A stretch of 64,000 nt of DNA from Paratrimastix pyriformis (Eukaryota; Preaxostyla; Paratrimastigidae), in the NCBI GenBank assembly GCA_027972325.1, contig JAPMOS010000055.1, forward strand, positions 158,501-222,500, in the 5' to 3' direction. Shown piece by piece: positions 6,811-58,052 of the stretch. The notes below the pieces were generated by a model. That model was given only the letters and a program-made list of their open reading frames with translations, searched no databases and was not told the DNA's origin. Within the stretch, counting starts at the first letter, position 1. Each line of letters starts with the position of its first letter. The translations under genes and the position numbers were made by a program.

Positions 6811-7031
6811 GAAGGGGAGAGCTTTTGTAGCACGAGTTTAATACCATTTCCTAAGTCTTTTGTGAAGAACACGCCTAAGGATGGAGTCTCTCGTATTCTG
6901 TATCTGAAGACTGTAGCAGTTTTATGAACCCGTTTGATTGGTACCAATTTATGCTTTTTTAACCATGTGCGACATTGATTTGGCTTAAATTTAGCTAAAG
7001 CGGGCACTACGGATGCATCATGAAGCACCAA
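6807..7031 (-). pseudogene. Truncated unknown basic protein, left copy
   Basis: The frame shares the pattern WLKKHKLVPIKRVH and RYRI with a broken homologue at 40,770-40,990, so it is a remnant of a real gene. Its upstream half has been replaced: position 7,013 is where the left block jumps into the C-terminal half of another gene. It ends 4 nt inside the end of the preceding 121-aa gene, tail to tail. The function is unknown. This copy provides the empty site for the twin-hairpin insertion seen at 40,816. Confidence 0.5.
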
Positions 7032-7440: not shown

Positions 7441-7494
7441 AATATTAGCAATGCTCACACATGTATGAGCATTCGAATGAATGGTAAAACCATT
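7441..7494. repeat. Twin hairpin between convergent genes
   Basis: Two adjacent stem-loops: an 8-bp stem AATGCTCA with an 8-nt loop, and a 6-bp stem AATGGT with an AAA loop, separated by a CG linker inside TTCGAA-like sequence. It sits between the stop at 7,435 and the convergent stop at 7,571. The architecture matches the twin hairpins near 12,700, 33,600, 40,840 and 41,010. Confidence 0.65.
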
Positions 7495-7570: not shown

Positions 7571-8218
7571 TTAGAATCCAGCTCCGGCAGGATGTTCTTC
7601 AGCCTCCTTTCTCAGTTCTTCTAATCGTGCAGCGCTCACAGCACCAGTGTAACCTTCAACCGGTTCTTCCACAGGTTCTTCATAATCAATCAGTCCAGCA
7701 TTTCCAGGTGCGGGTGCAGGAGGCAATAATGATACAGATGTCGGTCTACCGCCCGTAGTAGGCGCATGCATTGGTGCCCCACCAGTAGTTGGAGGAGGTA
7801 GCGTCGGAATTGCGTAAATTGGAGGAATCTCAATCGATGGAAGGAATTCAGGGTGTTCCCTTGCCATTCGTTCTCTTTCAGCATCAATCTTAGCCTGTGA
7901 TTTTAGGTATTCAGCACGTTCTTTTTCTAATCTATCTTTTACCGCTTTGACAGCCATATCAATCTCCTTTTTCTCATCTCTTGCTCCTTTGACTGCTTTT
8001 TTAGCGATCCTTCTAAAACTACCAAGAGGTGACATCTCATATTGACCGGCGGCTTGAATGATTGCGGCGTCATACAACACTTGTTTTCCTGTCATTTTAG
8101 ACATGACAGCCGCACAAATAGCTACAATTTCCTCTGTCTCATCATCAAACTGTGCGATGTGCGCAGCTCTTCGTCGATGTGTACCTTTTGACTTACGTGG
8201 TTCCTTGGAAGTATCCAT
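7571..8218 (-). CDS. Unknown P1 protein with PPxY motif (215 aa)
   Basis: The first ATG in frame is at 8,218 (MDTSKEPRKSK). The N-terminus is basic, followed by a helical, charged stretch (residues about 70-130) and a Pro-rich region containing PPIY and LPPPTTGG, then an acidic tail. PPxY is the late-domain motif used by many enveloped viruses to recruit Nedd4-family ubiquitin ligases; here that is only a suggestion. The P2 protein at 30,819-31,928 has a similar layout with PPKY and PPDY. The gene is absent from the right-hand copy of the block, where its neighbours abut directly. Confidence 0.55.
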   Translation of the reverse strand: MDTSKEPRKSKGTHRRRAAHIAQFDDETEEIVAICAAVMSKMTGKQVLYDAAIIQAAGQYEMSPLGSFRRIAKKAVKGARDEKKEIDMAVKAVKDRLEKERAEYLKSQAKIDAERERMAREHPEFLPSIEIPPIYAIPTLPPPTTGGAPMHAPTTGGRPTSVSLLPPAPAPGNAGLIDYEEPVEEPVEGYTGAVSAARLEELRKEAEEHPAGAGF

Positions 8219-8247
8219 TGTCTTCAATAATAATACACGAGAAATTT

Positions 8248-9373
8248 TCAGAGGATCGATGTCAGTGTGAATACAACAGCACCAAACAATAAAAATGGAG
8301 TGTAATTTGTTGATTCCGTGTCATGTGCAATAGGCTCGACAGGAGGAATTGGTTCGACAGGCGTAATAGGCTCAACAGGCGTAATAGGCTCCGCAGGTGT
8401 AATTGGTTCAACAGGCTCGGTTTCTCATCTTTTTCTTTCTTTGCATTTACAACACATTCATTAAGTTGTTGTATTTGGACATTTGTTAATGTGCCTACAT
8501 TCTTCCAATCTATTATATTACGACAATCAACACAAACTAAGTCACCCCATTGCGGTTTTGATGGCATCTCAGGCTTATTTACATTAATCTGTGCTATTCG
8601 TTGTGATAAAATGTCATCATGAATTCACCCGTTTTGTTCTGACGGTTTAACTCACTCCCTTCACATGATTGGACATTAAGATTTGATAAATCGAGTCCAT
8701 TTTGCTTAATAGTTGATGCAATGTATTTGTCCTTATCAGTCATCAGGCTGAAGGCAATCGAATCAATATTCCATAAGCCCGTGATTGTTGCATGGATGTA
8801 TTGAATCGAATCATTCATAAAATACCATTTGTCGTAATCATCTTTCCATTTGTCAAACTTAGCATAATAGTCATCCATCTGTTTTAGGTATGAATCATTC
8901 ATTTTGATAATGTTTTGAACCCCTTTTTCACATTCAGATAACTCTTTCGGAGCTGAATCTTCAATGTCTTTCAGACAGTCCCAATTTTTGGCACATGACT
9001 CAATCTTCGAACAGTTTACACACTTTTGGAACTGTGTCTCAGTTGTCGATTTAGCTATTGCTGGAAAAAACTCCGTATATGAATCAAAGTCAAAGTTGTT
9101 GGAGTGTGCAAAAGCTAATGCCTGTGGCACCGTGAAATCACTGTAAAAGGCTCTCGTTTTACTCCCTCCACGTAACGGCATTTCAACTCGTAACTTAGCA
9201 TATAATGCCTTTAACTCACGCTTTCTGTCCTCACCTTCTACCTTCATCAGATTGTCATATCGATGTTTTGATATAAAGTCCATTTTCAACGTTAACCTGA
9301 TGTAACTGACATTGTTCTGTTGAAAAGCATTGATGAACTTACTTTCAGTATCCAATGAATTCCACTGAATCAT
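8248..9373 (-). pseudogene. Cys-rich membrane protein, A16/G9/J5-like, left copy, broken
   Basis: This is the left copy of the 383-aa gene at 42,234-43,385. The first 250 residues are intact (8,620-9,373). A deletion of about 20 nt and a frame change near 8,600-8,620, and another break in the repeat region near 8,420, interrupt it. The C-terminal half continues with the Cys-containing segment, a repeated VEPITP-type linker and a hydrophobic C-terminal segment (FLLFGAVVFTLTSIL) before the stop at 8,248-8,250. It is divergently transcribed from the L1/F9-like gene with only 47 nt between start codons. Confidence 0.5.
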
Positions 9374-10743: not shown

Positions 10744-11652
10744 ATGGTATTGACAACCATGCACAGAACAGTTGAAACTGTTAATGAAACTCAACTAAAT
10801 GATACTCTTCAAGAGCTCCATCACCCTAACAAAGTAATCCTTACGCCTTATGATGAGGCTATTGCTAAGCAAGATGAAAGCTTAGCACAGAATGTTGTGA
10901 AGATAAGTGGACAAACTGTGTTCATTAAAAAAGAATGGTATGAGCTGTCTGATGTGTTCAAACAACCTGTCATCTTCCAATCATTTGAGCGTTACATGAA
11001 ATGGATTTACCCTCTACTAAACAATTCCGGGCGCGACTTACAGTTCGATGACGATGTGGATTCCATGGCTGAACTCGGTGGATTCATTGAGGAGGTGTTT
11101 AAATACAAACTCGATAAGCTCCTCGTTGAATCTGTCGTGTGTGATGTATCACAAAATAGTGGACTCGTCGATGAGATACAAAAGATGAAACGTTACATCA
11201 ACAAGTACGAATCCTCAGTAAATTCATGCTGGGGTATCTTAAAGAAAAAGGTGACTGAACGAATGCAAAATTTCGAAAATGAATGGCTCGGCTTTATCAA
11301 AATGTGGAGCGTCGTATATCAAAATGATAAGTATAATGGCATCACCTACGATTTAATCCTGCAAGCTATCAAAGCAAACAACATAATTGACATCTGTGTG
11401 ATGAATGTGAAATACAACAACATTATCTAGAAGTTCATCCGCTACTTCGAGCTGTATGTCGTAAAGAATGATAAGACTGTCGTGTCAACCAATAAGTATG
11501 AACTCAGTTTAATGCTTCCTGATGCATCTGAAACTGTATCTAACATCGCTACATCCATTTCTGGCATCATCACCAATACAAAAGTCCTCGATAAAAGCAC
11601 ATTGCTTCGTCAGGTGTCAAATCTAATGTCGATGAAATCACTTACTGCTTAA
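10744..11652 (+). CDS. P1 protein X, in-frame TAG (about 302 aa if read through)
   Basis: The frame runs from 10,744 to a TAA at 11,650-11,652 with one TAG at 11,428-11,430. Protein-like sequence continues beyond the TAG (KFIRYFELYVV...), and the P2 protein at 18,484-19,133 is a paralogue across both sides of it, so the TAG interrupts a real gene. The same TAG is present in the inverted duplicate at 28,980. The protein is helical, without membrane segments; presence in both Polintons makes it a candidate core or minor virion protein. Its stop overlaps the convergent VLTF3-like gene by a few bases. Confidence 0.55.
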
Positions 11653-12164
11653 ACACCTAATTTAAGCTCATTCCACTTCTTCTCATACTTCTTTATGAAC
11701 TCTCGATTGACACAAATCCTTTTGTATAACTTCTTATCTTCAATACCATTAGCCTGTAATAATTTGTATATGATGAACTTGTAATTCATTCTATACTTCC
11801 TGATGGCTAACCTGTCTTTTATCTTAGCAAACTGTCTCTTCATGCTTTCCCTGACTGTTGGTGCTATCTGATAATGTACCATCTTGCTAAACACCTGGTT
11901 GAAATAATTCGATGGTTTATATGGCACATAATGTGATTTATTACGTGCTGCTCGCTCTTCCTGAAAATTACATACAAATGGTGTCTCTAACACACATCCA
12001 CAGTTCTGACAGACATTTAAACCTTCTGGTGTTGTAACTGCATCTGGCTTATCACAACACTTCCATTCTGGTTCTTTTGGTTCCTTCTCAACTTCCTGTC
12101 TATATAAGTCCAATGATAACTGCATCAAACGCTTTCTCTCTGCTTTCTCATCCATCTCCTTCAT
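11649..12164 (-). CDS. VLTF3-like late transcription factor (zinc ribbon), P1
   Basis: The 171-aa protein has an N-terminal charged helix, then a zinc ribbon with CC at residues 36-37 and CQNCGC about 16 residues later, and a C-terminal helical domain containing VPYKPSNYFNQVFSKM and NYKFIIYKLLQANG. Zinc ribbon followed by a helical domain with conserved Tyr/Phe and an ILxxL-like segment is the layout of the viral late transcription factor 3 (A2L-like) family, a hallmark of nucleocytoplasmic large DNA viruses. The likely role is directing RNA polymerase to late promoters. An identical copy lies at 28,246-28,761. Confidence 0.5.
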   Translation of the reverse strand: MKEMDEKAERKRLMQLSLDLYRQEVEKEPKEPEWKCCDKPDAVTTPEGLNVCQNCGCVLETPFVCNFQEERAARNKSHYVPYKPSNYFNQVFSKMVHYQIAPTVRESMKRQFAKIKDRLAIRKYRMNYKFIIYKLLQANGIEDKKLYKRICVNREFIKKYEKKWNELKLGV

Positions 12165-13044
12165 GATTAATATAACAATAGATTATATTAAATCAAAAAC
12201 AACAAAAGTTAAAATGCAGTGGCTGCTTGAACTTAAGCATCCACATATTAAACACTGCAAAGGCTAAAAAGTACACTTGAAAAGCAATGCTGCGTAACAA
12301 CAGTTGTTCGCTACGATACTCTCGGGCGGAAGGATTTGTGGTCACTTGAAATCCCGGGTTCGTAGTGACGTGCAAAAAAGCACGGACGATATGAACTGTA
12401 AGTTCACACGTAACTGAAACTATGTGACCGTTATCACTATTCATTTTGGTATTTTTGCCTTCTAAGCAACTTACATGATTCCATGGATGTATGCTGTTCA
12501 GTGATAGCCTGCGAAACACTTTTAGCGCTTATCAGTGCTTCCGGTTCTATTTGAACAAAATTCATTTGATGCTAAGCTCAATTCATGAGAAAACAACGCT
12601 GCGAAACACAATTGATATCTGAATGTGTTCCCGTCATTATTTAATCACTGCATGGCTTCTCATCAAAACATCCAACCATTCAGTCGGCTTCTTGTGCAAT
12701 GCACACAGATGTGTGCATTCGAATGAATGGTGCTACCATTCATTGCATGTATGCGGCTGATAGAATAGCACCTTTATGTGGTACTACTCCATAATTACTA
12801 TATTTCATAATTCTTTAAGCCATTTTTAGAAAATAATTTGAGCTATGTGCATTATTTCATGTCACTTTGCTGAGCCTTCAGTGATCCTGATTGAAATTTT
12901 GCTCATCTTGAACCTGTATCTAAAAATCACTACTTTCTCATTTTTGCCTCTTCTTGGTGCCCTATCTACTCAAATTCATCAAAAGTAAGATATCCATTGG
13001 ATATATTAGCTAAAAGTAAAACTGAAATCGAGAAAACACTCTAT
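12165..13044. other. P1 intergenic region with twin hairpin at 12,695-12,746
   Basis: About 880 bp without a supported gene; a 108-codon open frame here has no protein-like features. Near 12,700 there is a clear twin hairpin: a 10-bp stem AATGCACACA with a GA loop and a 10-bp stem AATGAATGGT with a GCT loop, separated by CG. It lies downstream of the GIY-YIG gene and upstream of the VLTF3-like gene, and is copied at about 27,666-27,717 in the inverted duplicate. Confidence 0.6.
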
Positions 13045-13516
13045 TTAGAAATCAATGAGGTACTCATAAAGTGCATCCTTATCTTCCTTCTGTATCTTCT
13101 TATGGTTTTTATCTTATCAAAAGCATTTGCTTGTATTGCTCTTTGTTAGTCTTAGCTGAAATGCCTAAGTAGGCAATTGATGACTGCAAACTGTTCAATG
13201 TCTTCCTGAGTTGTGGTGGTAAGAGTTTCTTTGACTCTCCATACTCAAATACGAGGTCATCAAATGTAAAACTACTTTCACATCTTTGTTTAACCTGATT
13301 TGGATTCAATTTCAATGCTACACTGCATGCATATAGTGACTTGTATATTGTTTTCGTACCATCCGTCTTATTTGTCACTATTACTTGAGTCCTTGCTCCT
13401 TTCACATATTTCTCCTTCTTCTTGTATTCTCTCGGCTTGTAGTTCGACAAATCCTTGCAAAACGTCTTCTTGTATTTCTCCTGTTGGTATTCTTTGCGCT
13501 CATCTTCAGTGCGACA
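13045..13516 (-). pseudogene. GIY-YIG endonuclease of P1, 3' part, split by P2
   Basis: The frame enters from the P2 boundary with CRTEDERKEYQQEKYKK, a basic helical segment typical of what follows a GIY-YIG domain in viral nucleases, then a NUMOD-like DNA-binding unit (DGTKTIYKSLYACSVAL). The 5' part, with the catalytic domain, is at 32,997-33,283 on the same strand. The two join in frame across P2 when one CGACA duplication is discounted. Two single-base homopolymer differences from the duplicate copy (26,892-27,365) shift the frame near 13,105-13,120. Confidence 0.75.
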
Positions 13517-13937
13517 AGTAAGTAAAGGAGACCCCGTACATAAAACTTTCTATGATGGGAAGAGGTCATGGAGTCATGGTTATTAAGAAAAGTGCCATCA
13601 TAAATGGGCTGACCTGCACCTGCCCATCATAAAAACTTCGTCATTTTATGAAAATCCTCGTCGGGATTTGTGACGTGAAATTTTCCATCCACTGGTAGGC
13701 GTAGGGTGGGAAAAGGGAGAGTGAGACGTATGGGGATACATGAAATTGATTTCCTAACATGAATACAATTTTATTTCCTTCATTTTATGTCCTCTCCTTA
13801 TGTTATTCATCTTCTGACTTCTTCTCTCTGTCTTCTAACGAATAGGATCCGAAGTTGGGAAGAATACGCAGTCTTCACACTCAAACTTTGTTCTCGTCAT
13901 ATTCTGATCTCTCCTTATTATTCTTTCATCTTATGAC
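13517..13937. repeat. P2 left terminal inverted repeat
   Basis: Starts AGTAAGTAAAGGAGACCCCG against the GIY-YIG gene and ends at the inner boundary near CTTATGAC (13,930-13,937), next to the integrase 3' end. The reverse complement is at 32,566-32,996; a duplicated copy is at 26,471-26,891. Confidence 0.88.
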
Positions 13938-14690
13938 ATCAGCAGATGACTATTCAAGTTGCTTTTTTAATCTGATGAGCTTTTTTGTGTTGATGATATT
14001 GTTTTCATCGATTCCTTCTCGTTTCAGCTTCATCAAGTCACGGTTTATTGAAACTTTTGTGAATTTCATGAGACACATCTTCAATATTTTATGTTCAACA
14101 GTGTCAATCTTTTGAAGTTCGTCTGTCTTAAAACGTCGACGTTTACCATCAATAACCCATTTTGTGCCTTCACGTTTGGAAATGTTATATATCTCTTTAC
14201 TGAAACGTGGAATTTCTTTCGAATATTTGCCTACATGTTCATAAATTCTCACTGTATCGCCTGGTTTAAATTTCTCACCAAGTCGCTCGACAATAATTGA
14301 ATTTTCTTGAGAAATCTGGCTATGGAATTGTTTTTGCATTGGAACATTTTTGAAAACAAAATTTGGAGTCTTCATCAATAACCCTTTATGTGGAGTGTTG
14401 TTTTAATTGGTGACCAGTTCTTGAAATATTGAACTGATATTGACATGTTGGAGATTTTCAAGACTGAAAATATATTTAAAAAGCAGTTGCTTTAATGTTC
14501 TTGTGAGACGATCAATGATTCCGAGTCGATTTCCACCAACAATGTGATCATCACTTGCAGATTCAAAACGACAAATAATATTGCGGTCGTTGTTGAAAGC
14601 AAGGAATGATTTTTCATTAAATTCGTCATCCCTTCAAGTTGGTAGGGGGATTTTGAATATCATGTTGTAAATTATTTAAGAATTCTTTGT
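13938..14690 (-). pseudogene. P2 integrase, 3' fragment in left arm
   Basis: This is the C-terminal half of the integrase whose fuller copy is at 25,325-26,458. The frame 13,950-14,378 encodes the C-terminal domain (GDTVRIYEHVGKYSKE and a basic tail), and 14,380-14,690 the part containing GIIDR. The gene breaks off at 14,690 where Harbinger sequence begins, with five bases (TTTGT) shared by both parents at the junction. Confidence 0.75.
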
Positions 14691-17070: not shown

Positions 17071-17836
17071 TCAATCCTTGATTAAATTAACCCAGTGTGT
17101 TTCTTTCCAGAAGTGATATAAAAGATCATTATCATGATCTTGTAATAACGCTTTCGCGAGAAGAAAGCGGTCACGAAAATTTACAATTTTAGAAAATTTG
17201 ATTACTTCCTTTTTCAAATCATTTCGAAACATGCGACGATTAAAATATTGTTCTGCGATGGGAAACAAACACTGAATACCTCCGCGAATAGTATCAGTTT
17301 CATTAACATCAATCTCCTTGCGATCATACTTGTATTTTCGAGTGATCTCATAATTGTTTTCGCCTTTATATTTAATAATTGTAGTGCATCCGAGAAATTA
17401 GTCGGGATTTCCAACCTGATGTGAATATAAGTGAGTGCTTCATCAAAAGTCTTGATTAATGAGGTCATCATGACAATTTGGTGTAACATTTGACCCATAC
17501 TCGGCTCATATTCATTGAAGAATATCATCCGACCTTGGTATTTGGCGGCCTTCATGATTCGTCGTTGGTAAATCATGGAGTCTCGCGCATGCTTGATAAA
17601 AATGCCAATAGGAGAACGGATGGTATTTTTAAATTTATAAATTCTCGATTTTCTCGGAATTGCCTTAATTGATTGGCATCATTTTGTTGCTCCAGAAGCC
17701 ACAAAATCCGACTATATGGTCCACATCCAAGAACATTCAGAATTTTTCGGATCTCCGGTAGATCAGAATTAATTTGAGAATCATAATATGCGATGAGATT
17801 ATCAATTCGTTTCATGTAAACATCTCGTAATCCCAT
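17071..17836 (-). pseudogene. Unknown P2 gene, three frames
   Basis: Three overlapping frames (17,573-17,836, 17,214-17,576, 17,071-17,268) read as successive parts of one helical protein of about 250 residues that begins MGLRDVYMKRIDNL. Frame changes fall near 17,580 and 17,230-17,300. Its position between the protease and the small genes fits a virion gene. I do not recognise the family. Confidence 0.4.
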
Positions 17837-25324: not shown

Positions 25325-26458
25325 ATGAATAAAACTTTAGAAGAAAAATATTATGACCCACAATTTGGTTTCCAAAGCTTCGACAAATTTTACAAAAAAC
25401 TACAAGATGATCATATTGATCTCCCAAAATCAGAGGTCAAATCATGGCTTCAAAAACAGGAAGTTCACCAACTCGCAAAAAACCTCTCATCAAAAAAGCA
25501 AATTTCCTACGAATTGTGGCACCTCCTTTGACCTTTCAAATTGATAAAATTTATGTTCCAAAAGCACTATCTCAGATTAAAAATAAAACATCCATAAAAC
25601 CATTAAATAATGATCATCTTTATGCATTTCTTTTATGTGTCGACATTCTGAGTCGCAAAGCTTATATTTATAAATTAAAGGATCGGTCAATGTCTGACAC
25701 ATTACGAGCTTACAAAGAATTCTTAAATAATTTACAACATGATATTCAAAATCCCCCTTACCAACTTGAAGGGGATGACGAATTTAATGAAAAATCATTC
25801 CTTGCTTTCAACAACGACCGCAATATTATTTGTCGTTTTGAATCTGCAAGTGATGATCACATTGTTGGTGGAAATCGACTCGGAATCATTGATCGTCTCA
25901 CAAGAACATTAAAGCAACTGCTTTTTAAATATATTTTCAGTCTTGAAAATCTCCAACATGTCAATATCAGTTCAATATTTCAAGAACTGGTCACCAATTA
26001 AAACAACACTCCACATAAAGGGTTATTGATGAAGACTCCAAATTTTGTTTTCAAAAATGTTCCAATGCAAAAAACAATTCCATAGCCAGATTTCTCAAGA
26101 AAATTCAATTATTGTCGAGCGACTTGGTGAGAAATTTAAACCAGGCGATACAGTGAGAATTTATGAACATGTAGGCAAATATTCGAAAGAAATTCCACGT
26201 TTCAGTAAAGAGATATATAACATTTCCAAACGTGAAGGCACAAAATGGGTTATTGATGGTAAACGTCGACGTTTTAAGACAGACGAACTTCAAAAGATTG
26301 ACACTGTTGAACATAAAAATATTGAAGATGTGTCTCATGAAATTCACAAAAAAGTTTCAATAAACCGTGACTTGATGAAGCTGAAACGAGAAGGAATCGA
26401 TGAAAACAATATCATCAACACAAAAAAGCTCATCAGATTAAAAAAGCAACTTGAATAG
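25325..26458 (+). pseudogene. P2 retroviral-type integrase, frameshifted
   Basis: The gene starts 45 nt after the helicase and ends 12 nt before the P2 terminal repeat, where Polinton integrases usually lie. Three frames are needed (breaks near 25,510, 26,000-26,060). Catalytic positions read Asp in FQIDKIY, Asp in GDDEFN and Asp, not the expected Glu, in GIIDRLTRT. The C-terminal domain (GDTVRIYEHVG, FKTDELQKI) is chromodomain/SH3-like and ends in a basic tail. The P1 integrase (37,615-38,649) is a divergent relative with the normal Glu. The 3' part is repeated at 13,938-14,690. Confidence 0.75.
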
Positions 26459-26470
26459 TCATCTGCTGAT

Positions 26471-26891
26471 GTCATAAGATGAAAGAATAATAAGGAGAGA
26501 TCAGAATATGACGAGAACAAAGTTTGAGTGTGAAGACTGCGTATTCTTCCCAACTTCGGATCCTATTCGTTAGAAGACAGAGAGAAGAAGTCAGAAGATG
26601 AATAACATAAGGAGAGGACATAAAATGAAGGAAATAAAATTGTATTCATGTTAGGAAATCAATTTCATGTATCCCCATACGTCTCACTCTCCCTTTTCCC
26701 ACCCTACGCCTACCAGTGGATGGAAAATTTCACGTCACAAATCCCGACGAGGATTTTCATAAAATGACGAAGTTTTTATGATGGGCAGGTGCAGGTCAGC
26801 CCATTTATGATGGCACTTTTCTTAATAACCATGACTCCATGACCTCTTCCCATCATAGAAAGTTTTATGTACGGGGTCTCCTTTACTTACT
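26471..26891. repeat. P2 terminal repeat, internal duplicate
   Basis: Same sequence as the terminal repeat at 13,517-13,937 in inverted orientation, ending CCTTTACTTACT at 26,891 and followed by TGTCG, the complement of the target-site pentamer, and P1 sequence. It is a copy of the P1/P2 junction, not a third insertion. Confidence 0.88.
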
Positions 26892-27365
26892 TGTCGCACT
26901 GAAGATGAGCGCAAAGAATACCAACAGGAGAAATACAAGAAGACGTTTTGCAAGGATTTGTCGAACTACAAGCCGAGAGAATACAAGAAGAAGGAGAAAT
27001 ATGTGAAAGGAGCAAGGACTCAAGTAATAGTGACAAATAAGACGGATGGTACGAAAACAATATACAAGTCACTATATGCATGCAGTGTAGCATTGAAATT
27101 GAATCCAAATCAGGTTAAACAAAGATGTGAAAGTAGTTTTACATTTGATGACCTCGTATTTGAGTATGGAGAGTCAAAGAAACTCTTACCACCACAACTC
27201 AGGAAGACATTGAACAGTTTGCAGTCATCAATTGCCTACTTAGGCATTTCAGCTAAGACTAACAAAGAGCAATACAAGCAAATGCTTTTTGATAAGATAA
27301 AAAACCATAAGAAGATACAGAAGGAAGATAAGGATGCACTTTATGAGTACCTCATTGATTTCTAA
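26892..27365 (+). pseudogene. GIY-YIG 3' part, duplicated copy with open frame
   Basis: Open from the P2 boundary to TAA at 27,363-27,365, with no start codon of its own. It reads CRTEDERKEY, a basic helix and the NUMOD-like unit. Unlike the left-arm copy it has no frameshift, and the two differ in homopolymer runs. It has no catalytic domain. Confidence 0.7.
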
Positions 27366-28245
27366 ATAGAGTGTTTTCTCGATTTCAGTTTTACTTTTAG
27401 CTAATATATCCAATGGATATCTTACTTTTGATGAATTTGAGTAGATAGGGCACCAAGAAGAGGCAAAAATGAGAAAGTAGTGATTTTTAGATACAGGTTC
27501 AAGATGAGCAAAATTTCAATCAGGATCACTGAAGGCTCAGCAAAGTGACATGAAATAATGCACATAGCTCAAATTATTTTCTAAAAATGGCTTAAAGAAT
27601 TATGAAATATAGTAATTATGGAGTAGTACCACATAAAGGTGCTATTCTATCAGCCGCATACATGCAATGAATGGTAGCACCATTCATTCGAATGCACACA
27701 TCTGTGTGCATTGCACAAGAAGCCGACTGAATGGTTGGATGTTTTGATGAGAAGCCATGCAGTGATTAAATAATGACGGGAACACATTCAGATATCAATT
27801 GTGTTTCGCAGCGTTGTTTTCTCATGAATTGAGCTTAGCATCAAATGAATTTTGTTCAAATAGAACCGGAAGCACTGATAAGCGCTAAAAGTGTTTCGCA
27901 GGCTATCACTGAACAGCATACATCCATGGAATCATGTAAGTTGCTTAGAAGGCAAAAATACCAAAATGAATAGTGATAACGGTCACATAGTTTCAGTTAC
28001 GTGTGAACTTACAGTTCATATCGTCCGTGCTTTTTTGCACGTCACTACGAACCCGGGATTTCAAGTGACCACAAATCCTTCCGCCCGAGAGTATCGTAGC
28101 GAACAACTGTTGTTACGCAGCATTGCTTTTCAAGTGTACTTTTTAGCCTTTGCAGTGTTTAATATGTGGATGCTTAAGTTCAAGCAGCCACTGCATTTTA
28201 ACTTTTGTTGTTTTTGATTTAATATAATCTATTGTTATATTAATC
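27366..28245. other. Duplicated P1 intergenic region with twin hairpin at 27,666-27,717
   Basis: Inverted copy of 12,165-13,044. No supported gene. It contains the same twin hairpin as the left arm. Confidence 0.6.
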
Positions 28246-28761
28246 ATGAAGGAGATGGATGAGAAAGCAGAGAGAAAGCGTTTGATGCAGTTATCATTGG
28301 ACTTATATAGACAGGAAGTTGAGAAGGAACCAAAAGAACCAGAATGGAAGTGTTGTGATAAGCCAGATGCAGTTACAACACCAGAAGGTTTAAATGTCTG
28401 TCAGAACTGTGGATGTGTGTTAGAGACACCATTTGTATGTAATTTTCAGGAAGAGCGAGCAGCACGTAATAAATCACATTATGTGCCATATAAACCATCG
28501 AATTATTTCAACCAGGTGTTTAGCAAGATGGTACATTATCAGATAGCACCAACAGTCAGGGAAAGCATGAAGAGACAGTTTGCTAAGATAAAAGACAGGT
28601 TAGCCATCAGGAAGTATAGAATGAATTACAAGTTCATCATATACAAATTATTACAGGCTAATGGTATTGAAGATAAGAAGTTATACAAAAGGATTTGTGT
28701 CAATCGAGAGTTCATAAAGAAGTATGAGAAGAAGTGGAATGAGCTTAAATTAGGTGTTTAA
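28246..28761 (+). CDS. VLTF3-like late transcription factor, duplicated copy
   Basis: Encodes the same 171 residues as 11,649-12,164, including the zinc ribbon CC...CQNCGC. It is intact, whereas the flanking GIY-YIG and X genes in this arm are incomplete. Confidence 0.5.
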   Translation: MKEMDEKAERKRLMQLSLDLYRQEVEKEPKEPEWKCCDKPDAVTTPEGLNVCQNCGCVLETPFVCNFQEERAARNKSHYVPYKPSNYFNQVFSKMVHYQIAPTVRESMKRQFAKIKDRLAIRKYRMNYKFIIYKLLQANGIEDKKLYKRICVNREFIKKYEKKWNELKLGV

Positions 28762-29370
28762 GCAGTAAGTGATTTCATCGACATTAGATTTGACACCTGA
28801 CGAAGCAATGTGCTTTTATCGAGGACTTTTGTATTGGTGATGATGCCAGAAATGGATGTAGCGATGTTAGATACAGTTTCAGATGCATCAGGAAGCATTA
28901 AACTGAGTTCATACTTATTGGTTGACACGACAGTCTTATCATTCTTTACGACATACAGCTCGAAGTAGCGGATGAACTTCTAGATAATGTTGTTGTATTT
29001 CACATTCATCACACAGATGTCAATTATGTTGTTTGCTTTGATAGCTTGCAGGATTAAATCGTAGGTGATGCCATTATACTTATCATTTTGATATACGACG
29101 CTCCACATTTTGATAAAGCCGAGCCATTCATTTTCGAAATTTTGCATTCGTTCAGTCACCTTTTTCTTTAAGATACCCCAGCATGAATTTACTGAGGATT
29201 CGTACTTGTTGATGTAACGTTTCATCTTTTGTATCTCATCGACGAGTCCACTATTTTGTGATACATCACACACGACAGATTCAACGAGGAGCTTATCGAG
29301 TTTGTATTTAAACACCTCCTCAATGAATCCACCGAGTTCAGCCATGGAATCCACATCGTCATCGAACTGT
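28758..29370 (-). pseudogene. P1 protein X fragment in right arm
   Basis: Inverted copy of 11,040-11,652, containing the same in-frame TAG (28,980-28,982). The 5' third of the gene is absent because the duplication ends at 29,370, where P2 sequence upstream of the ATPase begins. Confidence 0.6.
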
Positions 29371-33582: not shown

Positions 33583-33642
33583 ATCCGGTAATGCAACGGA
33601 TGGTGCAACCATCCATTCGATTATGCAATCTTGATTGCATAA
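33583..33642. repeat. Twin hairpin at the end of the polymerase gene
   Basis: A 7-bp stem GGATGGT with a GCA loop is followed by an ATTCG linker and a 10-bp stem ATTATGCAAT with a CTTG loop. The second hairpin encodes the last residues and the stop codon of the polymerase ORF, so it has become part of that gene's 3' end. Confidence 0.65.
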
Positions 33643-36600
33643 TGCCCATATGCGTAACTGTCAGTCTTGTTTCTGAGATACCTTTTGTCATCATAAGAGC
33701 ACAATGCAAACTTGTTCACTGCTACTGAATATAACTGATGGTACTTGCTTTGAATTGTGCAAAATTTCACCTTAGGATGTGCCTTATCAATCTCTTCTTC
33801 ATTCTTTTTCTCCATCTCTTCATCAATCTCTTCATCAGTCTCTTCATCATTCTTTCTCTGTTTGCGCTTTGACTTCTGTTTGCGCATTGGCTTCAGACAT
33901 TCTGAGTTCAGACATTCCATGAATCTTTTGTGTGACAATTCTTGCTTGATTGCTGACTTCTTCACACCTTTGCATTTGGCATGCTTCTCCTTATCACCTT
34001 CTATGACATATGAATACATCTTCGAACGTAATCCACAGAACTCTATGATTTGCTTGCCTTTGGCTTCATCCTTGAACTTTCCAATCTTGGCAATGTTCTT
34101 TTCGCTGAATAGTGCATTGTCCTCTGGATAATTGGATGTATCGAGTTCGTCTTCAAATTCTTTCATGTCTTCGTAGATGTCTTCTGTCTCCACAGCTACA
34201 CATAAACTGTCAGTGTCAGTGAATAGCAACTTGACTTTGTCCCCATACTTTGCTTTTAGTGTATTGTAGTAAAAGTCATACATGTGCATCTTGGATAAGT
34301 CTAAAATTGATTGCCCAACTGCTATTGGCATGTTCAATTTGACTGATGTCTGTCTTGCATGTATGCCTACGAGTTTATCTCCAAATATCACTGTCTTCTC
34401 ATAATTTCGCTTGGCTACGAGCTTACGTGCCTTCTCCTCACTGGAGGTTAGTGTAAAGTTGATATGAGAACGATTGTTCTGCATGGTTTTTCCAAATACT
34501 GCATTGTTTGCTAATTTGAATAGCGCCTTCTCGAATTCATTCTTTGTTTTTGAACGCTCATTGGTATTGAATCCTATGTAGTCTTCTAACCATGGCTTTT
34601 GCTTAAATGACATCACCCTTTTGACTGCTTTCAGTTCCATCCCTAAACTCAAATATAGCTGGAGTGCCCGATAATGCACAACGTAATCATTCTTATCTTC
34701 AAAATCACAAATCAACTTCTCAACTTTCGCCTGCTTTAGGCTTAAATTCGTCTTCAACAACTTCTGGTATTCAGATAACTTTTCATCTTCTACAACCTTC
34801 TTGCATGGCGCTAATGGATAATCATTGTGCATGTCATGTAGTTCTTTTGGATATGATAAATCCACTTCTAATATGTAGCCTCTATCTCCATTCTTGTCTA
34901 ATGACATTATCTTGCTCTTCGTGAACTTGCTTACGTTCTTTTCCCATTGAAAATCAGTCGTTGGTAGTCTGTAACTCATTGCTTTGCCGTATAGGTTGTT
35001 AGCATCGAGATACAGAATATACACTGTTTTACCCTCTTTGTTGTATGTCTTCATGTACTTGTTGTTGGCTTGACAATATCTGTTCGTTATCATTGAAATC
35101 CCTCCTCGAATACCCTTCTCAATAAACAAATGCATGTCCATTTGTGTGTCATTAAATAAGTCTAACTCCACCTTCGAACGCTTCAATGCCGCATCCCATG
35201 ACATTGCTGGTAATGACACGTAACATACCGGATCGAGCCCGTAATTTTTCATACACATGCTACGAAACTTTTCGAAGACATCTGCTAATAGTAACACATC
35301 AGTTTTAAGGTATATGTCATGATAATCACCTAACGTTTCACATTCAAATGTGTTCCATACTGTCTGTGCATGTGCATAATCTTCATCAGATATGGCTTTA
35401 TCGTTTAGTTTACTGTAAAATGCTTCCTTTGGTGGCAATTCAGTCTCATCGAACTTCTCCATTGTGTTCAAATAGTCATATGGATAAACACCCTTCTGGC
35501 ATAAAAGTTTCAGGTTCTCTTCACTGATTCCTTCCCAATCTGCTTTTGTTCTGATAAAATCATCGTAGTTGTTCTTCCCTAAGTTCTCTGATAATTTATC
35601 CAATGATTCTGTCATGAATGCAAAACTGTCTTTGAACTCTATATTTCCATCCATCGAGAACGACAGATACTTCTCTTCAGTCAATGCTAAGCATGTAATT
35701 TTCTCACTAAAGTTCCCTATTTCTTGCATTAGGAGGTGAGAATCATATCCCTTTAGATTGTGAAAGAAAACTGGTACCTTGTAATTCTTCAGACTGAATA
35801 ATAAGTTACATCCTTTATGTGCTGCCCCTCGATATTCACCCGTAATATGATCATGGTCTCTCACTTTATCTGATTCATCTTTGATCTTTCGTCCACAAAT
35901 ATGACATACAGTGGCTTTATCAAACTCTTTTTGTTGTTCCTTCGATAAGTTCATCTCACAGTTCCTTTTGACTTTCTTCAGTATCGTTTTACGCTCTTCG
36001 ATGATGGATTATAAGAAATGCTCAACTGCTCCTTCACCACGATACAATTGTATTGGTCTCTCAAACTCTGGATAATTACTGACAACTTTGTAAGCATATG
36101 AACACACATTGTGGTGCTGATATGCTGCTTTTATCTTTTTCTCATCGTCATCATCATCAATTGGTGTCGTTAGTGCTTCAAAATCTGCATAAATCACAAA
36201 AGGTTGCTTCACTGATTTTGATATATGCTTGAATTGGACATGAGCATCTTCTTCTATTGGTAACCATGCTTGACAACATTCATGCTCATAACACACTGGC
36301 TTATGTCTTTGCTACAGGCTTTCATTCCAAAATCCATGCATACAGTTCAGGCAAAAATACATTCTGCCCTTGTGATTGTTCTGGCTTGAACTCAGTAGCC
36401 GAGACAAATCTTTTACAACACATAATGTGAGTTGGTTTCAGTCTTCTCACATCCTTCTCCATTCATCACCTCAGTATTCTCATCGAGCTCTGTGATACGT
36501 AGCATGTTGACAACTGCTTTAGCTGTATTCCAAATTGGTGAGACATACAATGGATTGAATACAACTGATGTCTTCTTATCCTTCTTAACCTTCTTTGTTG

Positions 36601-37545
36601 TGATATGGTGCTCAATCACATTAATAGCTATGTTATTCTTTGCCTCAAAACGTGATATATTGTCGATTTCCATTGGAAAATGAATCCCCTTAAAGTCGAG
36701 CTCATTTTCATACTTCATGTATTGTTTCACACGATGTCCATTCTTCTCAACTGGATGCAATGCCGCTAAGACACACCATTTAAAACACTGATTGTCATCA
36801 TTATGAACGTTTATTAGAGCATTCTTTTGCTTTAGAACATCTGGAAGAACAATGTAACTGCTTCCACGCATTGGCTTGTATGAGGCTACATTCAAAAACA
36901 CACATTCTCAATACGTTTTAGGACCCATGCACTTCCATTGTTAACAAAATTGTCCACGAGCTCTTGGATTCTCGACACTGCATTCCCAATTCCTTCTTCA
37001 ATGTCTTTCTTACCGAGAATTCGAATGCTGCCCGACGAAAAGTGTCCATACATTGACTTGTCTTCTTTGGTGAACTGGCATTTCAACACGATGTTCAGTT
37101 TGAACTGTCCTCCCTTCATTTCTTCATATAATATCTTTTTTATCATTCCTTCAGTGTCCGCAAAACATCTCTCAACACTTTGCTTGTAGTCAGTTGCCTC
37201 GATCTTTCCATGGTTCATAATCGAATAGTTCTTCATAAAACCTTTCATGGCTTTTTTGCATTCTACCACTTCATATTGTGCTATTTTTCCAAACTCATCT
37301 TCGACGTTTTCTGCTCCTTTTGTTGATAATGCATCTACATCAATAACTTCTTCTTGTGCAACCTTCACTTCTTTCTTTTCCTTCTTTTCCTTCTTTTCCT
37401 CTTTTGGTGATGCTGCCTGACGTTTATTTATGTATTCTTCGAACAACTTCTTCGCCTCTTCATCTGAGAGTCCATCAAATGCAACAAATGGATTTGCGGT
37501 TTTAGTTGTCATGTCTATAGTAGTGTGAGATAAAATTTTTTTCAT
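33621..37545 (-). pseudogene. Protein-primed DNA polymerase B (Polinton pPolB), P1, frameshifted
   Basis: One gene of about 1,300 codons in four frames: 36,892-37,545, 36,413-36,901, 36,009-36,296 and 33,621-35,954, with breaks near 36,895, 36,300-36,410 and 35,955-36,008. In order: an acidic/Lys-rich N-terminus, DDNQCFKWCVLAALHP, a zinc-finger segment near 36,330, exonuclease motif YADFEAL, an embedded HNH-like unit CHICGRK...DHDHITG, exonuclease II HNLKGYDSH, then polymerase motif A (DANNLYGKAM), B (LANNAVFGKT) and C (FTDTDS). This is the complete motif set of Polinton polymerases, which replicate linear genomes from a terminal protein. It is divergent from integrase with 69 bp between. Confidence 0.92.
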
Positions 37546-37614: not shown

Positions 37615-38649
37615 ATGGAAAAGACCATTCAGAATGCTTATAGCGATCCTAAAACGGGCTTTGTTTCCGCTCCTAAATTGTATCGAAAACTAAAACAAGA
37701 TGACAAGAAAATCACCTTAGATGCTGTCCAAAACGTGCTAAATAAGACACCTGATTATCAAATCATGAAAGAAGATAGAAAACCCAAAAAGTTCAACACG
37801 ATTGTGGCTCATACTGCTCTCGCATGTGTTCAGATGGATATCATCATCTATGATCGTTTTAAGACGAGAACTGGATTCGAGAACATCCTCTGTGTTATTG
37901 ATGTGTACTCTCGTTATGCTGCCTGTCGTCCTCTTAAAACAAGAAAGCCCACTGAGGTTCTCAAAGCAATTAAAAGTAGCTTCCATGATGACTTAAAAGG
38001 TACTCCTGAAAACATCAACTGCGACAATGAGTTCCAAGCTAAACAATATGTCAAATGGATGACTGACAATCATGTTGTGGCTCATTTCAGTGACCCTGAA
38101 GAAATCAATAAGAACAGTATTGTTGAACGATTCAATCGTACAATTGCTCTCAAACTACAACGTTGGCGTCTCTCTTCTGGTGACTCCGATTGGACTAAAG
38201 TTCTTCCTGATTTGGTATCTTCTTACAACAATGATTACCACAGAACCATTAAAGCAACACCTTATAATGTGTTCAACAACCATGATACAAACAAACAATC
38301 AGTCACTCAAATAGAACGTATTTATAATATCGGTGACCATGTTCGTGCTGTTCGAAAGCTCAAGGCATTCGCTAAAGGTGATGAAGTAAAGTATTCTCTC
38401 GCTGTCTATATCATTGATTCGTTCGATGGTAAAAAGTATGTTCTCAAGAACCTGAAGTCTGGAGAACTGTTGAAAAAGCACTACAAACAATATGAGTTGA
38501 AGAAGGTTGGAGAAATCATCGAGAAGGAGAGCACTGAAAAAGCTGTCAAGAAGATTGATGACACAAAGAAGAAAAGACTCGTCAAACGAAGACTGACTCG
38601 AGAAGGTATTGACACAGATAATATAATGCATGATATGAAGCTCCGTTAA
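37615..38649 (+). CDS. Retroviral-type integrase of P1, intact (344 aa)
   Basis: The DDE catalytic triad is visible: Asp in VQMDIIIYD, Asp in NCDNEFQ and Glu in NSIVERFNRT, with core features VIDVYSRYA and SYNNDYHRT between and after. The C-terminal part (GDHVRAVRKLKAF...YIIDSFDGKKYVLKN) is the chromodomain-like fold of Polinton integrases, and a Lys/Arg-rich tail follows. The N-terminal 60 residues are a helical specificity domain. It is the best preserved replication/integration gene in the window. Its stop overlaps the small minus-strand gene at 38,646-38,816. Confidence 0.92.
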   Translation: MEKTIQNAYSDPKTGFVSAPKLYRKLKQDDKKITLDAVQNVLNKTPDYQIMKEDRKPKKFNTIVAHTALACVQMDIIIYDRFKTRTGFENILCVIDVYSRYAACRPLKTRKPTEVLKAIKSSFHDDLKGTPENINCDNEFQAKQYVKWMTDNHVVAHFSDPEEINKNSIVERFNRTIALKLQRWRLSSGDSDWTKVLPDLVSSYNNDYHRTIKATPYNVFNNHDTNKQSVTQIERIYNIGDHVRAVRKLKAFAKGDEVKYSLAVYIIDSFDGKKYVLKNLKSGELLKKHYKQYELKKVGEIIEKESTEKAVKKIDDTKKKRLVKRRLTREGIDTDNIMHDMKLR

Positions 38650-40403: not shown

Positions 40404-40769
40404 ATGATTTGTATGAAACACATCATGTTCCTCTCAATAAACCTTGATTCAACGCAGAAAACACTCATTTTAAACCAGTGGATGAACAAAAATCCAAATT
40501 ACCTAACTCTTATAGGCACTCATCTTGTCACCAATTCAGTCACCAGAAGTCGATATTTTGTAGTAATCAGGGGCTTATACACTGATCAAATCATTAATAA
40601 TGTGACGAGTGAAGCCGCAATACCAGTTTTTGTAGGAACAGATAACAAAGGGCTCGAATTGTCACCAACATCGACTCTTACGAGGACATATGACTATTCG
40701 ATCTTAGATGAAACAGGACAGCCAACAACTGATGAAGTGACTGTAAACATGTTATTTAGAGTGGATTAA
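40404..40769 (+). CDS. Unknown P1 structural-block protein, right copy (121 aa)
   Basis: Differs from 6,445-6,810 at only a few residues, so the two copies are recent or under constraint. DNA similarity begins at about 40,388, upstream of the start. Beta-rich, no known motif. Confidence 0.6.
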   Translation: MICMKHIMFLSINLDSTQKTLILNQWMNKNPNYLTLIGTHLVTNSVTRSRYFVVIRGLYTDQIINNVTSEAAIPVFVGTDNKGLELSPTSTLTRTYDYSILDETGQPTTDEVTVNMLFRVD

Positions 40770-40990
40770 GCTGTGGAGACTCCATTCATCACCAGTTTTA
40801 TGCCATTTCCTAAGTGACGATGGAACTTTGTTCCATCACCCGGGTGACAGACGATTGTCTGTCATCTCTTTTGTGAAGAAATCACCAAATTCTGTTTTGA
40901 TGATTCTGTATCGTAACATGTGTTCTGTTTGATGGACACGTTTGATTGGCTTAAGATTATGTTTTTTCAACCATCTACGGCAAGGAATGG
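40770..40990 (-). pseudogene. Broken basic P1 gene, right copy, interrupted by a twin hairpin
   Basis: The frame has WLKKHNLKPIKRVH and RYRI as in the left copy (6,807-7,031), then a 52-bp insertion (40,816-40,867) absent from the left copy, which brings a stop into frame, and then resumes with LGNGIKLV. A second twin hairpin lies against its 5' part (about 40,983-41,036). The function is unknown. Confidence 0.55.
40816..40867. repeat. Twin-hairpin insertion with an identifiable empty site
   Basis: An 8-bp stem GATGGAAC with a TTT loop, the palindromic linker ACCCGGGT and a 7-bp stem GACAGAC with a GATT loop form a 52-bp unit. The left copy of the same gene reads directly across this point (CCTAAGT then CTTTTGTG at 6,851-6,865). 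The unit is therefore an insertion rather than a part of the gene, unless the left copy lost it by an exact deletion. Confidence 0.8.
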
Positions 40991-41036
40991 TTTCACCATT
41001 CGTTCGAATGCGCACAGATGTGCGCGTTGCATTGTG
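40983..41036. repeat. Twin hairpin upstream of the broken gene
   Basis: A 7-bp stem GAATGGT with a TTC loop, a TTCGAA-containing linker and a 7-bp stem GCGCACA with a GA loop. It resembles the 12,695-12,746 unit with the two hairpins in opposite order, and lies about 80 bp beyond the stop of the DUF2314-like gene. Confidence 0.65.
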
Positions 41037-41113
41037 ACGTATTATATTTTGTCTTATCGAACATAACAGAGATGATTTCTGCTGTCATTGAATGTAGCTA
41101 ATAAAATAGTCGA

Positions 41114-51479: not shown

Positions 51480-51999
51480 TTGCCTTGTCCTTGTGCTCGA
51501 TCGGGAGGGCCTGCGTCGGGAGGGGCGCGGTCGGGGCGGTCGGCGCAGGGGCGCTCCTTCGGCGGTATGGGTGGCGGCGGGGCGGGAGACCTAACGAAGA
51601 AGGAATTAAACCGAGCTTGAGGTGAGATGAAAACACAGACAAGGGCGCGGGTTGGGGCTGCTCGGTCAGCGGCTCGTCACCGCCAATGTCGACGCGCTCG
51701 TCGTCAGCGGCGAAAGCAGGGGAGGAGGGCCTCCCAATGCTCTCGAAGGCGTCTTGAATCACCATCAAATGCAGGGGCGCAGCGAGCGTCCCCCCCACAA
51801 GCTTCGAGGCGGCATTGATGCGGCGACGGAAGCTATGACAAGATGTTGTGGGAAAACAGAAGGGGCGAGGACAAACAAACCAATTGATCGCCACGTGTGG
51901 TGCCTCGGCCCAACCCGGGGGTTGAAGCGAGAGTGTGCCCTCACACCAAGCAATGGCATCTTCGGGGGTCCTGAACTGATTCCAATCGATAGAGTTCAT
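51480..51999 (-). CDS. Unknown two-exon gene start
   Basis: The first exon begins MNSIDWNQFRTPEDAIAW at 51,999 and can splice at a GT near 51,880 to an AG near 51,832, removing about 50 bp with a pyrimidine-rich end, to continue INAASKLVGGTLAAPLHLM. The rest is Pro-rich. It is the most upstream gene of the minus cluster; the satellite array begins about 60 bp beyond its start. Confidence 0.4.
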
Positions 52000-52060
52000 C
52001 TGAAAACGGCAAAAAGGCGCGTGAACAAGGAAGAGAACCCGGGGTAATGTCCACCCCGCT

Positions 52061-52578
52061 GAGTTTCACCGAAAAAACCCTTTGGGACATGTCACACCGA
52101 TCCGAAAAATTCGATTTCCATTGAAATTCCATACGAGTCGTATGGATTTTAGTACCCCCGACAAACTTCGGGATAGTGGTTCTGATGACGAAAAACGTCG
52201 AGCTTCACCGAAAAAACCCTTTGGGACATGTCGGAACACCGATCCGAAAAATTCGATTTCCATTGAAATTCCATACGAGTCGTATGGATTTTAGTACCCC
52301 CGACAAACTTCGGGATAGTGGTTCTGATGACGGAAAACGTCGAGTTTCACCGAAAAAACCCTTTGGGACATGTCGGAACACCGATCCGAAAAATTCGATT
52401 TCCATTGAAATTCCATACGAGTCGTATGGATTTTAGTACCCCCGACAAACTTCGGGATAGTGGTTCTGATGACGGAAAACGTCGAGTTTCACCGAAAAAA
52501 CCCTTTGGGACATGTCGGAACACCGATCCGAAAAATTCGATTTCCATTGAAATTCCATACGAGTCGTATGGATTTTAG
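52061..52578. repeat. 142-bp satellite array, left part (about 3.6 units)
   Basis: Direct repeats with a strict 142-bp period; each unit includes CCATACGAGTCGTATGG, a perfect 17-nt palindrome, CGAAAAATTCG and TAGTACCCCCGACAAACTTC. Unit differences are few. The array stops at TTTTAG (52,578) and resumes after the element at 52,579-57,229 in the same register. Open frames inside it are by-products of the repeat. Confidence 0.95.
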
Positions 52579-52800
52579 AAGTCCGTCGTATCCTCGGACT
52601 TCCTGAACCCCCTCTCACCGGTTACGGTCCTGCTGTCAGGACACCATCATGTGGACACCATCATGTGGAGTTTGGCAGTATCTTCAGGTTACACCGAACT
52701 TGAAAGATTAAATAATTAGTTTCAAGATAAATTATTTCGCAAGAAAACTTAGTCTTACTCTCCCTGGCGTACCTGCCTTTCTCCCGCATTTTTTCGGCGG

Positions 52801-56822: not shown

Positions 56823-57229
56823 GAATCCCACCTCCCACCCCTGGCGGCCGCGGACGCAGCGCGGTTGAGGGATGCCCCGGAGCGAAGGGGTCAGAGATCG
56901 AATGTGAGTGAAGGCCGTCCGGTTTTTCTAATCACCTCTTTTCCGGACTATATGGCTGAGGGATCGTCTATCTCTGGCCCCCCTTGGGGGGTCCCTCGAT
57001 GGGAGTCTAATCTTGGATGCTTGTCTTTTCTACCGCCGAAAAAATGCGGGAGTAAGGCAGGTACGCCAGGGAGAGTAAGACTAACTGTTCTTGCGAAATA
57101 ATTTATCTTGAAACTAATTATTTAATCTTTCAAGTTCGGTGTAACCTGAAGATACTGCCAAACTCCACATAATGGTGTCCACATGATGGTGTCCTGACAG
57201 CAGTCCCGTAGGGTTCGGGGGGTTCTGAT

Positions 57230-58052
57230 TACCCCCGACAAACTTCGGGATAGTGGTTCTGATGACGAAAAACGTCGAGTTTCACCGAAAAAACCCTTTG
57301 GGACATGTCGGAACACCGATCCGAAAAATTCGATTTCCATTGAAATTCCATACGAGTCGTATGGATTTTAGTACCCCCGACAAACTTCGGGATAGTGGTT
57401 CTGATGACGGAAAACGTCGAGTTTCACCGAAAAAACCCTTTGGGACATGTCGGAACACCGATCCGAAAAATTCGATTTCCATTGAAATTCCATACGAGTC
57501 GTATGGATTTTAGTACCCCCGACAAACTTCGGGATAGTGGTTCTGATGACGAAAAACGTCGAGCTACACCGAAAAAACCCTTTGGGACATGTCGGAACAC
57601 CGATCCGAAAAATTCGATTTCCATTGAAATTCCATACGAGTCGTATGGATTTTAGTACCCCCGACAAACTTCGGGATAGTGGTTCTGATGACGGAAAACG
57701 TCGAGTTTCACCGAAAAAACCCTTTGGGACATGTCGGAACACCGATCCGAAAAATTCGATTTCCATTGAAATTCCATACGAGTCGTATGGATTTTAGTAC
57801 CCCCGACAAACTTCGGGATAGTGGTTCTGATGACGGAAAACGTCGAGTTTCACCGAAAAAACCCTTTGGGACATGTCGGAACACCGATCCGAAAAATTCG
57901 ATTTCTATTGAAATTCCATACGAGTCGTATGGATTTTAGTACCCCCGACAAACTTCGGGATAGTGGTTCTGATGACGGAAAACGTCGAGTTTCACCGAAA
58001 AAACCCTTTGGGACATCTCGGATGGATTTTAGTACCCCCGACTAACTTCGGG
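57230..58052. repeat. 142-bp satellite array, right part (about 5.8 units)
   Basis: Continues the 52,061-52,578 array in register from TACCCCCG. The last unit is truncated: after GGGACAT it jumps to the GGATGGATTTTAGTACCCCC part of a unit with a variant TAACTTCGGGA, then into the flanking gene region at about 58,053. Confidence 0.93.

Follow-up and report, generated by a model that had tools for sequence, protein, structure and literature searches.

Double-hairpin units of about 50 bp in Polinton copies of Paratrimastix pyriformis: candidate non-autonomous mobile elements

RESULTS

The locus and its carrier

The window, by which we mean the whole stretch of 64,000 nucleotides analyzed here (C447:158501-222500 of the Paratrimastix pyriformis assembly, which comprises 56,060,509 bases in 495 contigs), contains an element of 38% GC between host flanks of 60% GC. 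Because it encodes a retroviral-type integrase and a PolB-related ORF, the carrier was taken for a Polinton, an assignment that agrees with the original prediction and is supported by these predicted proteins. The features of the carrier and of the first insertion site, A1, are as follows (a slash marks a junction).

33621..35954, minus strand: PolB-related ORF of 777 aa, named from its protein relatives; its 3′ end is altered by a B3 unit
37615..38649, plus strand: rve (retroviral-type) integrase of the Polinton (PF00665, E 7.7e-9)
40404..40769, plus strand: 121-aa gene, convergent with the gene interrupted at A1; query for finding other copies of the element
40836..40990, minus strand: 3′ part of a small gene whose last residues are replaced by the A1 unit, with an early stop at 40,836-40,838
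40815..40815, plus strand: target base T of A1, repeated at 40,867, which makes a 1-bp overlap of both flanks
40816..40866, plus strand: class A unit at A1, 51 bp, composed of GAC, hairpin 1, ACCCGGG, hairpin 2 and TC
40819..40837, plus strand: hairpin 1 of A1, GATGGAAC-TTT-GTTCCATC, perfect 8-bp stem
40838..40844, plus strand: linker ACCCGGG of A1, part of the palindrome TCACCCGGGTGA together with the stem ends
40845..40864, plus strand: hairpin 2 of A1, TGACAGAC-GATT-GTCTGTCA, perfect 8-bp stem
6855..6856, no strand: empty A1 site of the left, diverged copy, CCTAAG/TCTTTT

The integrase has 321 relatives (120 listed). Of the relatives of the 777-aa ORF, 7,993 were scored and 120 listed. Identity is 44-52% over 83-100% of the ORF in nearly all of those listed, one row being 55% identical over 6%, and many of them are about 1,250 aa long. 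The precomputed domains of the matches listed include PF02945 (endonuclease VII) in many and PF03175, which we take to be DNA_pol_B_2, in some, while a Pfam search of the ORF itself found the endonuclease VII part only. The PolB ORF of the window is shorter than many of these relatives, and part of the gene seems to be missing or broken.

The right gene copy had been predicted to hold two adjacent perfect stem-loops where the left copy reads straight across, and this is what the letters say: the 8-bp stems lie at 40,819-40,837 and 40,845-40,864, and the left copy is joined at 6,855/6,856. The predicted unit of 52 bp is real, but the inserted piece measures 51 bp (40,816-40,866), T40,867 being a repeat of T40,815. 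Folded as single-stranded DNA, the unit reaches -14.6 kcal/mol (z -5.1 against 200 shuffles). In a DNA search with positions 40,780-41,100, A1 was filled in four copies (C447, C255, C18 and C118; 98-100%), whereas two others (C208 and C329) lack exactly the unit, with flanks that match 97-98% over 234 bp and 92-94% over 36 bp; these two read CCTAAGTCTTTTG where the filled copies have CCTAAGT, the 51 bp and TCTTTTG. The count at A1 among 49 merged places is 4 filled and 2 empty. The left copy, predicted to be the empty counterpart, is indeed empty, as is C452, but both belong to a diverged subfamily, and the near-identical empty copies are C208 and C329. A deletion in the left copy does not account for the empty state, since both states also occur among other copies that are more closely related.

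Twin hairpins across the window

The further twin hairpins predicted for the window were located at the class B units listed here, to which the B7 site of the left copy is added.

7450..7494, plus strand: site B1, between two convergent ORFs; sole match of its type in the class B pattern search, with an empty form that is not clean
12698..12744, plus strand: site B2
27666..27712, minus strand: the B2 unit again, inverted duplicate of 12,698
33598..33643, minus strand: site B3, nine codons short of the point where the PolB-related ORF stops in empty copies
40985..41025, plus strand: site B0, present in 6 of 6 comparable copies, with no empty copy seen
8093..8248, minus strand: B7 site of the left copy, without a full unit (42 bp of the unit missing, possibly with a short residue)

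They had been described as one plan with different stems. The plan is common, but there are two families: the unit at 40,816 has neither the ATGGT hairpin nor the TTCGAA linker of the predicted plan and reads GAC-H1-ACCCGGG-H2-TC. Between 6,001 and 44,200, seven bins hold twin hairpins, against a mean of 0.65 and a maximum of 3 in 40 dinucleotide shuffles; one of the seven (17,122-17,190) looks unrelated and one is the duplicate at 27,666. When the stems had to sum to 14 or more and the loops to span 3-8, six twin hairpins remained in the element (those at 17,122 and 27,666 counted, that at 40,985 not) and none in the two host flanks, while loops of up to 9 add a few unrelated pairs in the element and one in a host flank at about 52,554. 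The pairs at 17,122-17,190 and at about 13,627 (with its duplicates) were rejected as units, having neither linker nor stems in common with them. The GC content of the four units measured is 40-55%.

The Polinton region contains a large inverted duplication (window 11040-14632 and 25772-29370, 95-100% complementary in pieces), to which the twin hairpin at 27,666 is due, so that it is not an independent insertion. The host DNA of the window carries 142-bp tandem repeats in two arrays (51952-52677 and 57171-58038), whose repeat units contain the hairpin TCCATACG-AGT-CGTATGGA.

Two families in the assembly

The assembly was searched by protein, DNA and pattern, and part of it was read letter by letter; all assembly counts are lower bounds, because the searches scored best candidates only. 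The 121-aa gene gave 60 match rows, fragments included. A class A pattern of linker plus half stems gave 30 rows, its reversed control 1; the 22 rows with 0-1 mismatch are real units, and in the fetched loci of the other 8 (2-3 mismatches) no such unit was found. Class A, defined by the linker ACCCGGG, thus has 22 places in the 56-Mb assembly at five sites (A1 4, A2 8, A5 1, A6 2 and A8 7). A looser pattern for the first half of the unit gave 23 places, the same 22 and C184:37112, where a further class A first half (37112-37137) lies outside the known sites and is known as a pattern match only.

Filled and empty states were counted per site in the 49 merged places (216,221 bases), with row numbers that differ between sites because both flanks had to match. 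A2 was filled in 8 and empty in 18; A3, which holds a chimeric unit with a different linker, in 3 and 23 (4 of the empty ones with a changed target); A5 in 1 and 23; A6 in 2 and 13; and A8, taken to include A9, A10 and A11, in 7 and 23. A7 (C255 and C118) was left out of the counts, being a hairpin pair in a repetitive stretch whose empty form is not clean. A decayed A2 unit, a sign of turnover, was seen in L034 (C177).

Class B, with the linker CG, has 91 pattern places against 0 in the control. They fall into B2 (21), B5 (43), B3 (14), B0 (6), B6/B7 (6) and B1 (1), a sorting by matched letters in which the surroundings were read for a minority of places. One precise empty copy was read at B2 (L094); of the 39 match rows of this site, 8 fall short by exactly 49 bp, compared with 20 fetched rows that have the unit. 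Fourteen places were read as empty at B3, and 25 of 42 rows there are about 51 bp shorter, against 10 full ones. Among the 49 merged places, B4 is filled in 5, exactly empty in 3, reduced to a 28-bp remnant in 1 and diverged at the spot in 21; the partly deleted unit of C107 at this site is a sign of turnover. The 60 rows of B6 include 4 filled ones and 15 that are about 51 bp shorter, two of these empty copies having been read, and the 33 rows of B7 include 2 filled ones, while the flanks of C410, C452 and C191 overlap there by 2-3 bases, as judged from match coordinates only. No empty copy of B0 or B5 was found among the copies compared, and B1, B0 and B5, which have no clean empty copy, are not counted as polymorphic. 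Wherever the surroundings of units were compared, the units lay in Polinton copies.

B5 was considered as a Polinton terminus and rejected: with L096 as the query, 39 rows besides C61 start at its base 117 or 118, but copy C115 and the distances indicate an insertion private to C61. A separate GC-rich insertion seems to be present beside the B5 unit of C61 (L096 1-117), perhaps with a duplication of ACTGT. At C7:19811-19890, two B3-type pattern matches lie 51 bp apart, possibly a tandem duplication of the unit.

Filled and empty copies of the same site

According to the original prediction, a mobile unit should leave many precise empty sites among relatives of its carrier. When these were searched by protein, DNA and pattern over the whole assembly, both filled and precisely empty copies were read at ten sites, six of class A and four of class B, and an eleventh follows from match coordinates. 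The closest pair, C263 and C115, shows 0.77% mismatches over 1,433 aligned bp, and its only indel is the A2 unit; C164 and C447:144116 (1.5%), like C263 and C164 (2.0%), differ by a single indel of 51-52 bp. At A6, C19 differs from C331 and C255 by 82-84 bp and smaller indels, hence not by the unit alone.

Related units also stand at different sites. Those of B6 and B7 are alike in 51 of 54 bases, those of A2 and A9 are identical but for the three bases of one loop, the A6 unit joins the H1 of A5 to the H2 of A1, and the A3 unit joins a class A H1 to another H2. Such similar units at different sites, together with the exchanged hairpins, mean that copying into new places is needed. On a tree of 31 copies, which is rough and has three long-branched rows, the numbers of changes needed are 5 for A2, 3 for A1, 2 for A3, 1 for A6 and 2 for B4. 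The 5 changes at A2 imply that units have also been lost, inserted more than once at one spot or passed on by conversion between copies, and the last of these is likely.

Stems, loops and targets

Compensatory variation of the stems had been predicted, and it is complete in class A: in 8 distinct units, standard pairs fill 128 of 128 pair cells, and both sides have changed in 7 of the 16 pairs. This value and the all-paired value were reached by 0 of 500 shuffles, and slid control structures were 25-54% paired; further pair types are unremarkable in number (140 of 500 shuffles). Since the units are few and related, the compensation shows that pairing has been kept, not how many events there were. 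The loops occur in both orientations. In 20 exact matches of B2, the loop reads GCT in 18 and AGC in 2, and at one class A site the loops TAC with ATGT stand against GTA with ACAT. Inversion of the whole unit is ruled out as the cause by the constant order of H1 and H2. Separate insertions with other loops are a possible source of the variants at the class A site, and both loop orientations are expected if hairpins are copied across in replication.

The target of class A is (T)GA/C, with 1 bp duplicated (A or T), a motif that A1 carries on the opposite strand (AAAAGA/CTTAGG). That of class B is TG/C, with about 2 bp duplicated (GC at B6). Junction overlaps of 4-5 bp (TGCA at B2, AATGC at B4 and TAATG at B3) are longer because the unit ends resemble the target, and at B3 a C of the filled copy is T in the empty copies. 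The motifs were chosen after the sites had been seen, and a duplication of just 1-2 bp can be mimicked by chance or by microhomology joining. Five class A sites lie in a 671-bp intergenic stretch (L006 1864-2534) in which TGAC occurs 17 times against 4.6 expected, perhaps as a regulatory motif of the Polinton. Class A units begin with GAC (AAC in one) and end with TC, which is GA...GTC on the reverse strand; the GT...AG ends of a spliceosomal intron or introner are absent from them.

Effects on genes

Three units, A1, B3 and B6, fall in the final 9-16 codons of ORFs, to which they supply a stop codon of their own. With frames read by eye, the protein end changes from FFTKDLGNGIKLVMNGVSTA* to FFTKEMTDNRLSPG* at A1, from HYRIKMEESKE* to HYAIKIA* at B3 and from KAEEHWDQKAVNTK* to KAEERCTQRCAHPNE* at B6. 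The B2 unit cuts an open frame by about 19 residues, although this frame has only about 43 codons and may not be a gene. In the N-terminal part of a gene, the B7 unit (L101 60-120) keeps the frame open, which is 42 bp longer than in the left window copy according to the letters and 51 bp longer than in C410 and C452 according to coordinates. A2 lies about 40 bp upstream of a start codon. The hairpins are therefore not confined to gene 3′ ends, a position that had been named in advance as a warning sign and that is real for some insertions (A1, B3 and B6) but not for all. Since units also occur upstream of and inside genes, a transcript-end hairpin alone is an insufficient account of them; nor is such a function required, since copies without the unit outnumber those with it at B3 and B6. 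At A1 and B2 more copies are filled than empty. The 3′-end positions could reflect tolerance or use.

DISCUSSION

Near-identical Polinton copies differ by the precise presence or absence of a unit; similar units stand elsewhere, share a target motif and are flanked by short duplications, and their stems are perfect yet variable, their hairpin modules swapped and their loops inverted. As judged from these sequence comparisons, the unit is probably a very small mobile element, non-coding and non-autonomous, that consists of two hairpins with a short linker and exists as two families, A and B, with short preferred targets in Polinton DNA. The mobility originally proposed thus gains support from precise empty sites at ten sites, from similar units at other places and from full compensation in the stems.

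An alternative holds that the twin hairpins are transcript-end signals, acting through hairpin cleavage or polyadenylation as in Mimivirus, and that usefulness at gene 3′ ends accounts for their gain and loss at these positions. The positions of A1, B3 and B6 in the last codons of their ORFs, each with its own stop, agree with it, as do B2 in its doubtful frame of about 43 codons, B1 between convergent ORFs and the Mimivirus hairpins, which according to the part of PMC4402537 used here likewise form without sequence conservation. It seems unlikely to us, however, in view of the A2 unit upstream of a start codon, the B7 unit inside the N-terminal part of a gene with the frame open, the excess of copies without the unit at the gene ends of B3 and B6 (the reverse at A1 and B2), and the conserved linker and ends, which a signal of structure only would not need.

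Origin in place, by template switching of the Polinton polymerase and not by copying from elsewhere, would yield perfect stems and flipped loops, both being expected products of copying across hairpins. It is disfavored, since five class A sites have linker, ends and stem modules in common and one unit recurs, nearly unchanged, at B6 and B7, and we regard it as barely plausible. Spread solely by ectopic gene conversion or recombination between repeated TTGACAT-like motifs, without a transposition enzyme, would fit the enrichment of TGAC in the stretch with five class A sites and the scattering of A2 over the tree, but class B targets share little beyond TG/C, and in the junctions inspected the flanks of different sites are dissimilar beyond the short motif; as the only process, conversion is thus very improbable. 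Palindromes are prone to deletion, and the units might be ancestral and have been precisely deleted from many copies, like palindromes between short direct repeats. The decayed A2 unit (L034), the partly deleted B4 unit (C107) and the excess of filled over empty copies at A1 and B2 point in that direction. The flanking repeats of class A are 1 bp, however, empty copies exceed filled ones at A2, A3, A5, A6 and A8, short rows exceed full ones at B3 (25 to 10) and B6 (15 to 4), and similar units at several sites need copying anyway, which leaves very little room for ancestral presence.

If the units are mobile elements, their movement could be coupled to replication of the carrier. During strand-displacement replication of the Polinton, the single strand set free would fold into the twin hairpin, and a copy of the folded unit might be inserted elsewhere, at a nicked or slightly staggered break, with a putative nuclease, polymerase or recombinase of the Polinton or of the host assisting in trans. 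Copying across the hairpins would flip the loops while keeping the two arms of each stem matched, and gene conversion might then spread a unit from one copy to the same site in others. More tentatively, Polintons may host hyperparasites of their own, namely two families of gene-less elements of about 50 bp. In the form of folded single strands, these would transpose into short target motifs while the Polinton DNA replicates, with a Polinton or host enzyme; if that is true, few transposing elements known outside organelles would be as small. A unit of about 50 letters is in any case one of the smallest mobile-element candidates outside mitochondria, it may add an extra layer of parasitism to virus-like transposons, and it could give Polinton genes a route to new 3′ ends or in-frame pieces. 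The assembly makes it possible to test whether double-hairpin DNA is mobile: it contains the same site many times over, both filled and empty, along with two families that differ in target and a carrier that has few enzymes.

The units resemble MITEs in being short, non-coding and non-autonomous and in having a target duplication. MITEs are usually longer and have a transposase-bearing parent with the same ends; the unit patterns, searched over the whole assembly, found the units and a few chance matches, with no MITE-type parent among them. The original prediction compared the units to the mitochondrial double-hairpin elements (DHE) of fungi, reportedly first described in Allomyces by Paquin in 2000. 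According to the sections of PMC10085805 used here, such elements in chytrids (e.g. Allomyces) and in Schizosaccharomyces have two adjacent hairpins per short unit, occur in several copies per genome, lie mostly in intergenic regions and are potentially mobile, and those of fission yeast were sought by a GC content above 75%. The units described here share the two adjacent hairpins and the sporadic presence with empty sites. In contrast to the mitochondrial DHE, they lie in Polinton copies of a 56-Mb assembly and have 40-55% GC in the four measured, and no mitochondrial location was found for them, the 22 class A places mapping to Polinton copies at known sites and the window showing an element of 38% GC in host DNA of 60% GC. 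The comparison therefore stands as a resemblance in plan and behavior and not as membership. In IMG/VR, no relatives of three unit patterns or of the PolB-related ORF were found, and the titles and abstract openings of the open-licence PMC literature gave no earlier report of double-hairpin elements in Polintons.

Other hairpin repeats are set apart by similar comparisons. In the portion of PMC4478555 consulted, the GC42 clusters of yeast mitochondria are 42 nt long, polymorphic at many sites and inserted at a 2-base AG target that is duplicated, with loops more variable than stems and with merger and shuffling of modules, and more experiments are said to be needed to decide between cut-and-paste and RNA-mediated copying. 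The A3 and A6 units likewise combine merged or shuffled hairpin modules. By description, however, the two kinds differ: the yeast clusters are mitochondrial and GC-rich with an AG target, whereas the target here is GC or A, with 1 bp in class A, GC at B6 in class B, and an overlap of 4-5 bp at B2-B4. In Mimivirus, one hairpin-forming palindrome of non-conserved sequence ends transcripts (PMC4402537, in part), while the present units are double and sporadic, with linker and target fixed, and are found upstream of genes and within them as well; confinement to gene 3′ ends of the Mimivirus type was not seen, A2 and B7 being the exceptions. The short palindromic repeats of Volvox carteri organelles average about 50 nt, form hairpins, are mostly intergenic and also occur in nuclear DNA, where they are judged to be inert transfers from organelles (PMC2670323, in the passages used here). 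Unlike these nuclear copies, the units in P. pyriformis show precise insertion polymorphism among Polinton copies.
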